NCBI GenBank assembly: GCA_000961805.1
Contig: LADV01000144.1
Span: 1-5,444, forward strand
Direction of reading: 5' to 3'
Source: Peptococcaceae bacterium BRH_c23
GTDB lineage: Bacteria; Bacillota_B; Desulfitobacteriia; Desulfitobacteriales; Desulfitobacteriaceae
Length of the DNA: 5,444 nucleotides
In this document: positions 1,041 through 5,444 of the stretch, piece after piece
Position numbering within the stretch: the first letter of the stretch is position 1
How the letters are laid out: each line of letters begins with the position of its first letter
Notes under the pieces: model-generated
The model's database searches: none
Seen by the model: the letters and a program-made list of their open reading frames with translations, nothing else
Told to the model about the DNA's origin: nothing
Program-made: the position numbers and the translations under genes

Positions 1041-2606
1041 TCATGCTCCCAGTTTTCGTCGTACCAAACCCATCGCCTGCTCAAACTCTTGCATCCTCAA
1101 AAACTTCGCCAGCACTGCAAAGACAATGGCCCCGATGGCCGATCCAGTTACTAATACCGTTAGAGATGCTATCGTACCAATACCAATCACCGAAGTTAGC
1201 CACTGCATCCATACCCAGATCACAACCGCCATCAGAAGCGAAGCTACTAAGGATTTCAGACTAGTCCCGAACATAGCCCAACCATCCATTTGACCTATCT
1301 TCTTGCGCAGAAGGTAAAACAAGAGAAGCATATTCACAAACGCAGCAATCGTTGTGGCAAAGGCTAAGCCCCCATGAGCCAGCGGACCAATCAATAAATA
1401 CATGGCTAAAATATTAACAGCCATTGCAATAATTCCTAAGATTACGGGTGTCCAAGTATCCTGAAGAGCATAAAAAGCCCGCGGCAGAATCTGAATCACC
1501 GCTTGTGAAGTTATTCCAATCGAAAAATAAAATAAAGGAATCGCCATCATTAAAGTATCATTCGCTGTAAACTGACCATGCTCAAACAAAACCCGAATCA
1601 AGGGAAAACGCAAAACGATCATGCCCACCGAAATCGGAAGGGTTATAAAAATTACCATACGAATGCCATTTGATAATGTCTGCCGAAAATCATCCCACTT
1701 TTTTAAAGCCGCTTGTTCCGTCAGCGTCGGAAAAGTCGCGACCGCAATAGCTAAAGCAAAGATCCCTACCGGCAACTGGAAAAGACGATAGGAATACCAG
1801 ACTGCCGTAATACTGCCCGGAAACATCATCGACCCAAAGTTATTATTGACCACCACCTGAATTTGGTTCAGAGAATAACTGAGAATAATAGGTACAGCCA
1901 AGGCCCCGATTAGGCGGACACCCGGATGCCGCCAGTCAATGATCGGATAATAACGGATTCCCACTTTCCGCAAAGCCGGAATTTGAACAGCAAAATTAGC
2001 GATCGCCCCAAAAACAACCCCAAAGGCAAAGCCAGAAATGCTGTCAGGCTTTGCCGGATTTGCCAGAATCGTCCCAAAAAAGATAACACTCGCATTGTAA
2101 AGCACGGTTCCCACTGCAGAGGGCCAAAAAATCTTATAAGAATTTAAAATCCCCATCGTCAATCCGCTTAAGGCCATAAATAAAGGCTGCAGCAAGAGAA
2201 TTCGAGTCAAGTGGGTGGCTAGAACCATGTTTTCAGGCTCAAATCCTGGAACCACCAGACGAATAAAGTGGGGGGTAAAAAAAAGCCCCACTAAAACAAA
2301 CACCCCAAGGGTAAGCAAGATCAAATTCACAACAGAGCTGGCAACCCGCCAACCCTCATCCTCATTACCTTTGGCAATATATTCAGAAAAGACAGGAATA
2401 AAGGCGGCACTCAAAACTCCGCCCACTAACAACCAATATAACAAATCAGGAAGAACAAACGCCGTATTATAAGCATCCGTTACTCCGCTCTGTCCATAAA
2501 AACCCGCCATCAAGGTTTCTCTTAAAAAACCTAAAATCCTAGAAATCAATTGAGCAGCCATTAAAAATCCTGCTGCTTTAACAAGCGTTCGGTTGGTTGA
2601 TGACAT
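1041..2606 (-). CDS. murJ: Lipid II flippase MurJ (MviN family)
   Basis: MurJ moves the peptidoglycan precursor lipid II across the cytoplasmic membrane. The 521-residue product has the usual family length and many hydrophobic segments, consistent with the 14-helix MOP fold. Near the N terminus the family pattern is clear: ISRILGFLRE at about 21-30, TDAYNTAFVLPDLLYWLL from 43, then VGGVLSAAFIPVFSEY. The frame is open for 72 codons further upstream, but that extension is encoded by the repeat and contains a likely promoter. ATG 2606-2604 is preferred because MurJ proteins begin close to this SRxLGFxRE block and a GAGG sequence (2620-2617) lies ten bases upstream. ATG 2669 and ATG 2630 are weaker alternatives. 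The gene follows spoIIP on the same strand, and no convincing terminator is seen before the hutP promoter. Confidence 0.93.
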   Translation of the reverse strand: MSSTNRTLVKAAGFLMAAQLISRILGFLRETLMAGFYGQSGVTDAYNTAFVLPDLLYWLLVGGVLSAAFIPVFSEYIAKGNEDEGWRVASSVVNLILLTLGVFVLVGLFFTPHFIRLVVPGFEPENMVLATHLTRILLLQPLFMALSGLTMGILNSYKIFWPSAVGTVLYNASVIFFGTILANPAKPDSISGFAFGVVFGAIANFAVQIPALRKVGIRYYPIIDWRHPGVRLIGALAVPIILSYSLNQIQVVVNNNFGSMMFPGSITAVWYSYRLFQLPVGIFALAIAVATFPTLTEQAALKKWDDFRQTLSNGIRMVIFITLPISVGMIVLRFPLIRVLFEHGQFTANDTLMMAIPLFYFSIGITSQAVIQILPRAFYALQDTWTPVILGIIAMAVNILAMYLLIGPLAHGGLAFATTIAAFVNMLLLFYLLRKKIGQMDGWAMFGTSLKSLVASLLMAVVIWVWMQWLTSVIGIGTIASLTVLVTGSAIGAIVFAVLAKFLRMQEFEQAMGLVRRKLGA

Positions 2607-2697: not shown

Positions 2698-2734
2698 GGG
2701 CTAAGACTTCCTCCCTTAACCACTCTGCCAAAAT
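2698..2734. repeat. Left direct repeat, copy of the spoIIP 3' end
   Basis: This 37-base stretch matches 3117-3155 in the same orientation, with one substitution and a two-base gap. The right copy contains the last codons and stop of spoIIP, so this left copy is a detached duplicate of that gene end. The two copies flank the composite repeat, and the left copy stops exactly where the REP-like hairpin begins. Confidence 0.85.
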
Positions 2735-2763
2735 GCAAGACAAGAACCGTCCCTGCACTTGCA
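2734..2763. repeat. REP-like hairpin, copy A
   Basis: A 30-base unit begins with tgcaag and ends with cttgca, its inverted complement, around a core containing caagaaccgtccc. A second unit at 5221-5250 is identical at 27 of 30 positions in the same orientation. The minus-strand core gggacggttcttg resembles short palindromic repeats common in Peptococcaceae genomes, from memory of the family. A further perfect eight-base stem with a three-base loop follows at 2773-2791. Confidence 0.7.
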
Positions 2764-2841
2764 TACCGTGCCTTTGCGTCAAAGACGCAAACAGTCTTCA
2801 AAGAGCTCTCGTCGTCCCCCACCCGGCGACCTCACAGGCCA

Positions 2842-3134
2842 GAGGAAGTTTCTTAGCTTAATGAGCATGTGAGAGGAATCGCGTCAATGAGCGCAGGCGA
2901 TAAGGCGTGAAGAAACTCAACGGGACTTGTCCATGGATGGACTGATGTCGCGGTGCCAAGGATGGCAAGGAGCGACGCACATGCAGAAAGCCCAGAGGTT
3001 TTGAGTTTTAGCCTTAGCGACAAGGGAATAGCGATGGAACACGATAGTCTCCTGTGGAGAGTATCGCCGAAGCCGTGATCCCAGAAGGAAGACCTACAGG
3101 CGTAGGATGTGCGAATGGGCTAAGAAACTTCCTC
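2842..3134 (+). ncRNA. Structured RNA-like repeat element, copy A (complete)
   Basis: This roughly 290-base noncoding element is closed by a perfect 16-base inverted repeat (2842-2857 with 3119-3134). Internal helices include 2891-2894 with 2904-2907, 2913-2920 with 3001-3008, 2947-2951 with 2972-2976, 2954-2957 with 2964-2967, 3042-3052 with 3056-3066, 3080-3083 with 3116-3119 (which overlaps the closing stem by one base) and 3093-3097 with 3102-3106. Its first 80 bases and the stretch 2979-3014 recur at 5323-5444. The helix 2913-2920/3001-3008 is kept there by two compensatory double changes, which argues for a conserved RNA fold. A G-U pair in the 2891-2894 stem and purine-rich joints favour the plus strand as the RNA. 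I see no clear promoter for it. Its size, repeat character and lack of a reading frame fit a HEARO/omega-RNA-like or other mobile structured RNA, but I cannot assign a family. Its 3' end overlaps the last codons of spoIIP. Confidence 0.6.
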
Positions 3135-3155
3135 CCTTAACCACTCAGCCAAAAT
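3117..3155. repeat. Right direct repeat, containing the spoIIP stop
   Basis: This 39-base stretch is the partner of 2698-2734. On the minus strand it encodes the last residues of SpoIIP (ILAEWLREEVS) and the TAG stop, so it is likely the original copy. It also supplies the 3' arm of the inverted repeat that closes the structured element. Confidence 0.85.
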
Positions 3156-4271
3156 CTCTGCCACAGCCTCAGCCGCTCCATTTGCCTCCTCCAACGTATT
3201 TAACTGACTCCCAAACTCCAATAACAACCCTCCGTCAGAAAGATGCTGGTTATACCGTGCATCCGTAGCATAACTAATATTGGGAGCAAAGAGTCCAGGA
3301 TACTTCTTTTCTCCCAAAGCCATGAGTTCTTTGGCTAACGCTTCATTCTTCTGCCAGTGCGGATTCATTTTGCCAATGACCACCATAACCCGGCTGGTCT
3401 TTTGCCCCTTTACAATAACCGTTGACTTAGAGAACCCACGAGGAAGCCCATCCCGATGAATGTCTATTAAAAACTCCAGCGAAGGATAATCTTTCGTCAT
3501 TTGGGTTGCTGTAACCACCGATTTGCTATACGCTTTCATAAAATCGACTGCATCATGTATTTGTGTCGAATGGACGGCTCCGACTCCATTCCGTTCAAGC
3601 GCTTTCTTCAAAGTTTCACCCACTGTCACTACATCTCCGTTTTCCCCCTGCAGTCGTTCCAGACCCCCATCCCCTGCATAGCTCTCACTATTATGTGTAT
3701 TATAAATTCCCACTTTCACTTCTTTTGCCCCAGGAATCAAAGTATCTTGGGGATCAGTATCCTCATTCCCTGTGGGTACTTGAGTAGCAATTGGCTCAAG
3801 AATGGGTCCTTCAAACTCCGGGTCATTAGGGTTGTATGCCCACCCCAACCATACTGGACCTTGTGGCGGATGGGAAAAATAGCCCAAAAAAAAGGTTCGC
3901 GGATCCGAGATATTGACACCGGTTAATAAGAACAGACTAACCGCTACTCCCTGATGCCTAGCCAAGTCTACACGAGCGCGTTCTGGTTGAGAATAACCTG
4001 GAGCTCCTTCCAATAAAATTGCTTCAAAAGGAAATGATTGTTGAGTCAGAAAATGAACAAATTGAAGAGAACTCCCGCTGCGCAGAGCATAAACTAAACC
4101 TAAAATAACCAAGAAACTCGCAAGCCCCAATAGAAACCCACGCATCCAAGCTTTAATCGTCCAAATATTAAATTGTTTTTTTTGCCGATGATAAAAATCT
4201 TCCCGTAACAAAGGACTTGTCCCCCTTCCTCTTATTGAAGAAGTATGAGGGACAAGTCCACTGTAGAACAT
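3120..4271 (-). CDS. spoIIP: Stage II sporulation protein P (SpoIIP), cell wall hydrolase
   Basis: SpoIIP is a membrane-anchored amidase/endopeptidase. It works with SpoIID to thin septal peptidoglycan and drive engulfment during sporulation, and in known species it is made in the mother cell. The 383-residue frame has one membrane segment at about 44-63, a variable linker, and the C-terminal SpoIIP domain. That domain contains THNSESY (192-198), IDIHRD (269-274), IGKMNPH (299-305), YPGL (324-327), YNQHLS (340-345) and LLLEFGSQLNT (349-359). The His, Asp and Glu residues in these blocks fit the family's metal site. The start is uncertain. ATG 4271 has no ribosome binding site and is followed by an 11-base inverted repeat. 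TTG 4211-4209 has GGAAGGGGG nine bases upstream and would give 363 residues. The last codons lie in the duplicated repeat arm, but the protein appears intact. Confidence 0.92.
   Translation of the reverse strand: MFYSGLVPHTSSIRGRGTSPLLREDFYHRQKKQFNIWTIKAWMRGFLLGLASFLVILGLVYALRSGSSLQFVHFLTQQSFPFEAILLEGAPGYSQPERARVDLARHQGVAVSLFLLTGVNISDPRTFFLGYFSHPPQGPVWLGWAYNPNDPEFEGPILEPIATQVPTGNEDTDPQDTLIPGAKEVKVGIYNTHNSESYAGDGGLERLQGENGDVVTVGETLKKALERNGVGAVHSTQIHDAVDFMKAYSKSVVTATQMTKDYPSLEFLIDIHRDGLPRGFSKSTVIVKGQKTSRVMVVIGKMNPHWQKNEALAKELMALGEKKYPGLFAPNISYATDARYNQHLSDGGLLLEFGSQLNTLEEANGAAEAVAEILAEWLREEVS
4213..4259. repeat. Inverted repeat across the spoIIP start region
   Basis: A perfect 11-base stem (ggacttgtccc, 4213-4223, with 4249-4259) encloses a 25-base loop. 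It lies inside the first 20 codons of the longest spoIIP frame. On the minus strand the purine-rich ribosome binding site for TTG 4211 falls in the loop and 3' arm, so folding could limit translation. No T tract follows, so it is not a typical terminator. It may be a small inserted palindrome. Confidence 0.6.
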
Positions 4272-4323: not shown

Positions 4324-4653
4324 CTAACGAAGGGTCGTTGGAACAAAGCTATCCACGATCCCAATGACGAGAGAAGCTAATAAAGCACCGATAATCGAGA
4401 CTGTCATGTACCCAGGAATAAGAAACTGACTAAAGTAAATTACCACTGCAGCAGTAAGAAACCCAATCGAGCCCCGTCCCCAGCGAGTAATTTTGTCTCC
4501 AAACACTTTTTCAATTCCGTAACCGACTATCGCTATCACCGCTGCAGCGACCAACGCTCCCATGAACCCATTCACACGAAGTCCGGGAACAATCCAACTT
4601 ACTAATAACAGAACCACTGCCGAAACAATAAACCTCACGATCGCTCCTAACAT
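4324..4653 (-). CDS. Small membrane protein, phage holin 4_2-like family
   Basis: The 109-residue product is almost entirely hydrophobic, with about four membrane segments. It starts MLGAIVRFIVSAVVLLLVSW and includes PGLRVNGFMGALVAAAVIAI, a short basic loop (KITRWGRGS) and a C-terminal segment ending DSFVPTTLR. The pattern of a PG(L/F)xVxGF motif after the first segment, and its near-repeat PGYMTVSIIGALLAS later, is typical of the phage_holin_4_2 (PF04020-like) family of unknown cellular role. The name does not imply a phage here. ATG 4653 is chosen because GGAGGG lies six bases upstream. An ATG six codons earlier would place that ribosome binding site inside the gene. It lies 52 bases upstream of spoIIP on the same strand and may be cotranscribed. 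Confidence 0.85.
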   Translation of the reverse strand: MLGAIVRFIVSAVVLLLVSWIVPGLRVNGFMGALVAAAVIAIVGYGIEKVFGDKITRWGRGSIGFLTAAVVIYFSQFLIPGYMTVSIIGALLASLVIGIVDSFVPTTLR

Positions 4654-4697
4654 TTTTGACCCTCCAATCATTTATTTAGCTTTATTGAGAAAGTGTT

Positions 4698-4847: not shown

Positions 4848-5120
4848 GTGCCAAACATTAAATCCGCGATCAAAAGAGTTGAGTTGGCAAAAGTTCGCAC
4901 GATTAAGAATGCTGCAGCGAAATCTTCTTTACGAACAACCCTTCGTCGTTTCGAAGAATCAATCAGCACAGATTCCGAGACTGCAGCACTTGCTTTGAAA
5001 AAGGCAACTCGTGCTTTGGATAAAGCCTCCTCCAAGGGTTTGATTCATAAAAATCTTGCTGCTCGCAAGAAATCTCGTCTTAACAAAAGATTTAGCAAGC
5101 ACTTTGCCCAAGTTAGCTAA
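4848..5120 (+). CDS. rpsT: 30S ribosomal protein S20
   Basis: S20 binds 16S rRNA early in small-subunit assembly. The 90-residue, strongly basic product starts MPNIKSAIKRVELAKVRTI, the canonical S20 opening, and continues with alternating Lys/Arg-rich helices (RKKSRLNKRF near the end). Length and composition are normal for the family. Translation begins at GTG (4848-4850), with AAAGGGGGTGA six bases upstream. Non-ATG starts are common in rpsT and tie in with autogenous control in Escherichia coli; whether that holds here is unknown. The gene is divergent from the holin-like/spoIIP cluster. It has its own promoter and ends in a strong palindromic terminator, so it is probably monocistronic. 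Confidence 0.97.
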   Translation: MPNIKSAIKRVELAKVRTIKNAAAKSSLRTTLRRFEESISTDSETAALALKKATRALDKASSKGLIHKNLAARKKSRLNKRFSKHFAQVS

Positions 5121-5124
5121 ACAT

Positions 5125-5176
5125 AAAAGCTATAAAAAAAGAAAGCGATCGATCGCTTTCTTTTTTTATAGCTTTT
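5125..5176. terminator. Perfect palindromic terminator after rpsT
   Basis: A 52-base perfect palindrome begins four bases after the rpsT stop. The arms 5125-5150 and 5151-5176 are exact reverse complements. Each arm carries an A or T tract, so the stem should stop transcription from either strand. On the plus strand the compact GC-containing core (gaaagcgatcgatcgctttc) is followed by ttttttt. Confidence 0.92.
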
Positions 5177-5220: not shown

Positions 5221-5250
5221 TGCAAGTCAAGAACCGTCCCCGAACTTGCA
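5221..5250. repeat. REP-like hairpin, copy B
   Basis: This is the second copy of the 30-base unit at 2734-2763 (three differences), again with tgcaag and cttgca ends. It is bracketed by a 12-base direct repeat, ccaagcgcattt, at 5195-5206 and 5251-5262. That may be a target duplication or part of the unit. A weaker tttgc/gcaaa stem enclosed by gcgc/gcgc follows at 5255-5283, in the place of the second hairpin of copy A. Confidence 0.7.
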
Positions 5251-5322
5251 CCAAGCGCATTTGCTCAAGAACGCAAACAGCGCCACACACACCCCGTCCC
5301 TCTCCCGTTCGACCCAAGCCTA

Positions 5323-5444
5323 GAGGAAGTGTCTTAGCTTAGCGAGCACGATTAGTGGAATTGCGTCAATGAGCGCAGTCGATCAGGCGTTAAGAACCGC
5401 AACTGTTCACATGCAGAAAGCCCAGAAGTTTTGCGGTTTAGCCT
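5323..5444 (+). ncRNA. Structured RNA-like repeat element, copy B (cut by window edge)
   Basis: This copy starts with gaggaagtgtcttagctta and follows copy A over about 80 bases (2842-2920). It then skips about 55 bases of copy A and rejoins it at acatgcagaaagcccag. The 5395-5402/5431-5438 helix (aaccgcaa with ttgcggtt) replaces the aaactcaa/ttgagttt helix of copy A, with both pairs changed on both sides. The 3' half lies beyond the window. The start lies 102 bases after its REP-like hairpin, against 108 in copy A, so the two parts travel together. Confidence 0.6.

Follow-up and report, generated by a model that had tools for sequence, protein, structure and literature searches.

What is the noncoding repeat that occurs twice in the window (the whole 5,444-nt stretch of DNA analysed here), and how did it come to lie where it does? 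The initial annotation had proposed a two-part mobile unit, a REP-like hairpin followed by a structured RNA. Besides its two copies, A and B, the window contains a HutP-like ORF (380-847; assigned from a weak match), murJ (about 1041-2606, minus strand), spoIIP (3120-4271, minus strand), a 115-aa ORF with no family assigned (4324-4671) and rpsT (4848-5120). The core element of copy A, 293 nt long with two inserted modules, lies at 2842-3134 on the plus strand and was delimited by its match to a covariance model (R1, see below), by its fold z score and by its helices. The match to R1 scored 87.5 bits over 2842-3067 and stopped within the second module, and the fold of 2842-3134 had a z score of -5.1, equalled or bettered by 0 of 200 shuffles. 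Copy B, also on the plus strand, lies 3' of rpsT and is cut off by the window end (5323-5444; 130.9 bits with R1). By eye, the element stands 3' of seemingly the same gene end at two further loci, L002 and L022.

Anatomy of the two copies

The minimal core consists of six helices in 176 nt (all parts of the element given below are on the plus strand). In copy A, its ends are joined by P1, a perfect 16-bp terminal helix that the initial annotation had missed: the 5' arm (GAGGAAGTTTCTTAGC, 2842-2857) is fully complementary to the 3' arm (3119-3134); in reverse complement, the latter supplies spoIIP with its final codons and its stop. The resulting overlap of copy A with the 3' end of spoIIP (3120) had escaped notice as well. 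Further inward are P2 (2865-2868 with 3109-3112, including one U-G pair), P3 (2878-2880 with 3033-3035), the small hairpin P3b (GCG-TCAATGAG-CGC, 2881-2894), P4 (2896-2906 with 3011-3021, with two purine-purine mismatches in copy A) and P5 (2913-2920 with 3001-3008). P5 is the helix singled out earlier as being kept in copy B through two double changes, and this was confirmed on the sequence: it reads AAACTCAA/TTGAGTTT in copy A and AACCGCAA/TTGCGGTT in copy B (5395-5402/5431-5438), and is perfect in both. The apical loop CACATGCAGAAAGCCCAGAGGTT (2978-3000) is conserved, most positions being at least 70% identical among 61 diverse rows of the alignment A3 described below.

Two optional modules, likewise overlooked in the initial annotation, account for the extra length of copy A over the minimal form. 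M1, consisting of two hairpins in the apical loop (2924-2977), is missing from 176-nt copies; M2, of the form ACGA..hairpin..GGAT, is inserted in the 3' strand (3041-3108). Pieces of both modules were found elsewhere, alone and also one inside the other, and in one genome of the host class (G043) M2-type modules also interrupt the core. Two other hairpins of the window were noted beside these modules: one at 1-90 (GACGATAAGCGGACGAGCTTATCGCC..GTGTGGAT), of which a near-identical module is nested in loci L025 and L050 (by eye), and an imperfect one at 4208-4264 (GGACTTGTCC../..GGACAAGTCC) over the spoIIP start, which has GACTTGTCC in common with M1.

Upstream of the core, both copies have a REP-like hairpin (2734-2763 in copy A; 5221-5250 in copy B, with AAGAACCGTCCC inside) and a second hairpin (TTGCGTCAAAGACGCAAAC, 2774-2792 in copy A; weaker in copy B, near 5261-5279). 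The core starts 108 nt (2842) and 102 nt (5323) from the start of the REP-like hairpin, and the same order of parts in both copies was thus correctly described. As a two-part unit, the arrangement held for copies A and B but was looser elsewhere. Among 50 distinct copies from the named loci and the window, 24 were preceded on the same strand by the REP-like hairpin, at a distance of up to 200 nt (one on the other strand), and the second hairpin was likewise found with 24. A leader of the CGACCC..AAGCC type, which lies immediately 5' of P1 and is degenerate in copy A (2821-2841), was present within 30 nt upstream of 47. At L097, the leader region is an expanded tandem array with a unit of about 15 nt (CCCGTCGTACCAACT; by eye), and at L024, L041, L050, L056, L059 and L060 several copies were seen by eye to carry, at their right end, a repeat of the 3' arm of about 25 nt.

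Copy A is also flanked by a direct repeat that the initial annotation did not mention. Its left copy (2698-2734, plus strand) corresponds to the 3' end of P1 plus the 3' end of spoIIP, its right copy lies at 3117-3155, and the two match at 92% with a 2-nt gap and at 97% across 29 nt. We scored 77 arm pairs for long duplications, some copies being read in both directions, and a high score against its own flank was obtained for the window alone; the two other high scores were REP matches. The direct repeat is absent around the other copies tested and is therefore probably a local duplication. The same comparison led us to reject the idea that long target-site duplications generally accompany the element.

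A class-wide family under selection for its fold

To find further copies, an exact search of genome contigs was made with an 18-mer taken from the loop that the core copies share, which gave 69 stretches: 57 from Desulfosporosinus, one from Heliobacterium mobile and 11 from unrelated bacteria. Twenty-seven distinct copies with both arms present and shorter than 185 nt (175-179 nt) were aligned without structure (alignment A1, which omits longer, end-less and divergent copies), and the covariance model R1 was built from these Desulfosporosinus sequences. A search of the window and 58 loci, 59 sources in all, with R1 gave 79 matches at E ≤0.001. The model matched in all 12 genomes searched, with 81, 49, 35, 30, 29, 26, 15, 14, 14, 11, 10 and 3 matches, and in 61 of 82 genomes of the host class, where 33 candidates per genome were scored with stricter filters. 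In a thinly scored phylum sample (9 candidates per genome, again with stricter filters), 9 of 299 genomes had a match; six of the nine are class members and three are not among the 82. No match was obtained in the 11 unrelated genomes that contain the 18-mer only by chance (0/11). Absences in these searches are soft, because R1 was built from Desulfosporosinus and few candidates were scored under the stricter filters.

These results show that copies A and B are members of a large family of folded repeats of about 175 bases in Desulfosporosinus, heliobacteria and relatives. The proposal of a multi-copy noncoding element is strongly supported, up to 81 copies being present in one genome, and Rfam 15 gains a large structured repeat family that it lacks. 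Motif strands are mixed in G025 (12 plus and 8 minus at 3.9-4.55 Mb) and in G077. In G025, 20 of the 30 matches lie within about 0.6 Mb (3.92-4.55 Mb) of one 4.87-Mb contig, C1, which holds all 30. Scores differ widely among the copies in other genomes, so many copies may be old.

Selection on the fold was examined in A1 and in a larger alignment, A3, in which the model guided the alignment of 83 matches drawn from 69 sources. In A1, 92.8% of cells pair (86.5% in shuffles), and two-sided changes were seen at 18 pairs, compared with 9.3 in shuffles and 2-7 in slid controls. One of the five measures did not go beyond the shuffles in A1: there were 36 further pair types versus 32.9, and 41 of 500 shuffles were as high. 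In A3, 91.9% pair (62.2% in shuffles), and two-sided changes occur at 44 of 45 pairs (36.4 in shuffles). The fitting of A3 to the model biases these percentages toward it; A1 was unfitted. The covariation score of A3 was 0.682, against 0.188 in shuffles and at most 0.088 in slid controls, and the score was reached by 0 of 500 shuffles in A1 and in A3 alike. The helices of the core covary beyond chance, as would be expected of a structured noncoding RNA.

Individual helices contributed differently. P1 reads GAGGAAGT.. in the main Desulfosporosinus set, while a few further Desulfosporosinus copies and other lineages have different P1 sequences; in A3 it has two-sided changes at all 16 pairs and is 92.1% paired. 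That the closing helix is rewritten between lineages and yet remains paired is direct evidence for the importance of the fold. In P2, two-sided changes were found in both alignments. In P5, A1 contains seven double-change sequences at pair 76/116 and nine at pair 78/114. P3b is the least variable helix, with two-sided changes at two of its three pairs in A3 and none in A1.

The strand under selection was judged from G-U and A-C pairs. In A3, 73 of the 83 rows pair to at least 75%, and from these we used the 61 that are less than 90% mutually identical. G-U pairs outnumbered A-C pairs by 92 to 18 in these rows and by 18 to 7 in the unfitted A1. When both neighbours of a pair had to be Watson-Crick pairs, which fixes the pairing register, the numbers in A3 were 36 and 9 (p=7e-5). 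This excess indicates selection on the motif strand in folded, single-stranded form. The earlier claim of selection on an RNA fold is upheld to that extent, but the G-U excess does not separate RNA from single-stranded DNA (ssDNA).

Placement at gene ends and spread

We determined the position of the copies relative to genes in two sets. For the first, the neighbours were mechanical ORFs no shorter than 100 aa; it drew on 71 copies from the named loci and the window, of which 53 were scorable (the window itself was mis-scored, because its match ended at 3041). Both neighbours were oriented opposite to the motif in 34 of the 53, both in the same direction in 13, and mixed in 6. At most 40 nt separated the 3' end of the element from a convergent stop in 27 copies and from a codirectional start in 3; no copy had its 5' end that close to a codirectional stop. 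The second set was class-wide, used ORFs of at least 90 aa, had 61 of 67 copies scorable and has at least one locus in common with the first. Here, both neighbours were opposite in 30 of 61 and the same in 13; the 3' end was at a convergent stop in 21 and the 5' end at a codirectional stop in 4, the remaining counts being 6 and 2. Copies are thus placed preferentially just 3' of stop codons, with the motif strand antisense to the gene and its 3' end toward the stop.

At spoIIP, the element has a coding effect: in some species, the gene takes its last codons and stop from it. We compared 34 spoIIP loci. In six, the protein ends in ..EEVS* or ..EEAS* within the reverse complement of P1; three have the element further on, one has a remnant-like stretch, and no element was seen in the 150 nt 3' of the spoIIP stop of the other 24. 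In the spoIIP tree, the five other carriers fall within an eight-row clade (support 100/97) that excludes the window; the window is grouped with two species whose site is empty (94/89, not starred). A single ancestral insertion was rejected, since the tree needs at least two insertions or repeated loss; as the window stands outside the clade of the other carriers, this gene end has probably been occupied more than once or the element lost from it repeatedly.

Of the 49 matches in G043, 21 copies were examined. They include one set of 13 identical and 1 near-identical copies and another of 5 identical and 2 near-identical copies, which sit, in opposite orientation in the two sets, in a larger frame with its own hairpin; at locus L226 the frame lacks the core and is a clean hairpin. 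Because the copies are inside this frame, the recent multiplication there is that of the frame with its cargo. The suggestion of mobility is supported indirectly, by identical copies at many G043 sites, albeit within a larger frame, and by the patchy occupancy of spoIIP. Movement of the element by itself is plausible. Across loci L190-L239, the frame (GAGTCAGACTYCCATGC..CAGGGCAGGAGTCAG) is MITE-like and either lacks the core or contains it, in one orientation or the other. Its left-end 16-mer occurs at 43 places, often beside short tandem tracts of the AGGAGTCAG type. On contig C3 of G043, what looks like hutI stands between the frame and the core.

A gene accompanying the element was sought at 10 low-copy loci. 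Of the 20 flanking proteins, 19 belong to ordinary families (FliI/FliJ, Hsp33, EF-P, CbiC and similar) and one is unassigned; no partner gene was common to these loci, and neither IscB nor TnpB was among the 20. An ORF-carrying, autonomous form was rejected on gap length, the element halves being at most 571 nt apart in the loci examined; one 5' half lay at a locus edge without its partner. The element had no match in phage and plasmid records (blastn) or in IMG/VR (exact 20-mer).

Among genome-wide candidates for a mobilising enzyme, the reverse transcriptase domain RVT_1 was found in 67 of 82 genomes and gave no match in G004 (29 copies), G060 (15), G078 (21) and G076 (12); derivation from a group II intron or retroelement is not supported by its lack in these four multi-copy genomes. 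A TnpB-type domain was found in 32 of 82. Heliobacterium mobile (G004) matched none of Y1, RVT_1 and the TnpB zinc-ribbon domain, and the enzyme was not found among these three families. Together with the bias toward stop codons and the nested modules, this absence makes it a pointed question which agent mobilises or maintains a folded sequence of 176 nt that can reach dozens of copies in a genome.

Nature of the folded strand and nearest known systems

The explanation that we favour, with moderate confidence, is a family of noncoding, non-autonomous repeats, folded in single-stranded form and placed preferentially 3' of stop codons. The family and its fold are well shown, and the folded strand is likely to be RNA rather than ssDNA. 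The single strand of about 176 nt would fold as a long branched hairpin, with P1 joining the ends and P2-P5 stacking inward, and its conserved apical loop (CACATGCAGAAAGCCCAGAGG) is a likely, though putative, binding site of a trans-acting factor. The folded strand may bind a protein, and the repeat may spread through a host or foreign enzyme by way of a single-stranded intermediate. The modules M1 and M2 are optional insertions and nest in one another. No conserved promoter was visible by eye upstream of the copies. A more elaborate proposal, which we regard as speculative and unlikely, is a selfish class-wide RNA whose folded transcript would direct its own insertion 3' of stop codons through a single-stranded intermediate, and would grow by taking hairpin modules into its loops, the enzyme being other than RAYT, RVT_1 or TnpB.

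The G-U excess also fits ssDNA of the motif strand, appearing as G-T over A-C on one strand, and to that degree counts against an RNA-specific reading. The motif strand might then be a structured substrate for a recombinase or transposase, like attC or the ends of IS200/IS605, with no functional transcript; we consider this a possibility of real weight, albeit clearly a minor one. In integron attC sites, the pairing of the ends is conserved and their sequence is not, the sites lie 3' of stop codons in cassettes, and the antisense strand folds. The element resembles them in all three respects, and its terminal helix keeps pairing rather than sequence. The location of its modules in hairpin loops also agrees with an ssDNA substrate. 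However, its core of 176 nt and six helices is longer and has a long conserved loop, its neighbours are ordinary chromosomal genes such as spoIIP and rpsT instead of cassettes, no GTTRRRY-type core was apparent by eye at the ends of P1, and 11 genomes with at least nine copies have no Y1 transposase. The copies might alternatively be kept because they are useful to the host, if their reverse complement formed a strong hairpin 3' of the stop that blocks decay or ends transcription. The 27 copies close to a convergent stop and the six spoIIP genes with a stop supplied by the element agree with such a role, but we think it improbable: the pairing asymmetry favours the opposite strand, presence at spoIIP is patchy, and a plain hairpin needs no conserved loop.

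The two relationships suggested by the initial annotation are not supported. A REP family moved by RAYT transposases would account for the REP-like hairpin upstream of 24 of 50 copies and for the abundance of Y1 transposases in some genomes (14 matches in G002). Nevertheless, Y1 and element presence are unrelated (38/23 versus 14/7, Fisher p=0.80; rho -0.01), Y1 is missing from 11 genomes with at least nine copies, no Y1 match was obtained in Heliobacterium mobile with its 29 copies, and in 48 of 90 cases a REP site is more than 400 bp away from any intact element start, all of which makes mobilisation by RAYT very improbable. Membership in HEARO/omega RNAs or another known Rfam family deserves almost no credence. 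HEARO RNAs are likewise multi-copy, structured and often without an adjacent ORF, but Rfam scans with an E limit of 5 or 10, or at gathering level, gave no HEARO (RF02033) match, and the 20 flanking proteins at the 10 low-copy loci included no IscB or TnpB. Over the element, Rfam 15 gave matches at chance level, the best being TwoAYGGAY (17.3 bits, cut-off 43, E 7.5), and at gathering level in 16 loci it gave only T-box, purine and PyrR, all outside the element. The best match in the window was the rpsT terminator hairpin, as a microRNA (38.1 bits, cut-off 47). A perfect 26-nt inverted repeat with a U tract forms this terminator-like hairpin 3' of rpsT, at 5125-5176, and its microRNA matches in Rfam are below threshold.

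The noncoding, non-autonomous family that we favour is apparently undescribed so far: a literature search with narrow terms, largely in open papers, found it nowhere described. MRSC motifs, REP families and bcr1 come nearest to it. The bcr1 element of the Bacillus cereus group, a chromosomal repeat of about 155 bp with a predicted RNA fold and mobile-element traits, is alike in fold and mobile traits, as generally described, but differs in host group. MRSC motifs (mobile/repeat sequence candidates), from an ncRNA survey of 50 genomes, are structured, have many copies per genome and inconsistent gene orientation, and are thought to be selfish, their RNA or DNA form being left open (PMC11109978). 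The element is like them in being a structured motif with many copies per genome; MRSC-65-2, the example given from the 250 motifs, differs in having UYCCGG repeats and in occurring in diverse phyla (PMC11109978). The main text of the survey lacks the string 'helio' and has 'desulf' a single time, in Desulfobacteraceae (PMC11109978). GTAG and CGTC REP families are intergenic, possibly non-autonomous single hairpins of 20-40 bp, and 'firmicutes', 'desulf' and 'heliobacter' each occur 0 times in the text of their description (PMC3733652). The 176-nt core with six helices does not fit a GTAG-tagged hairpin of that size, whereas the adjacent AAGAACCGTCCC hairpin is REP-like.
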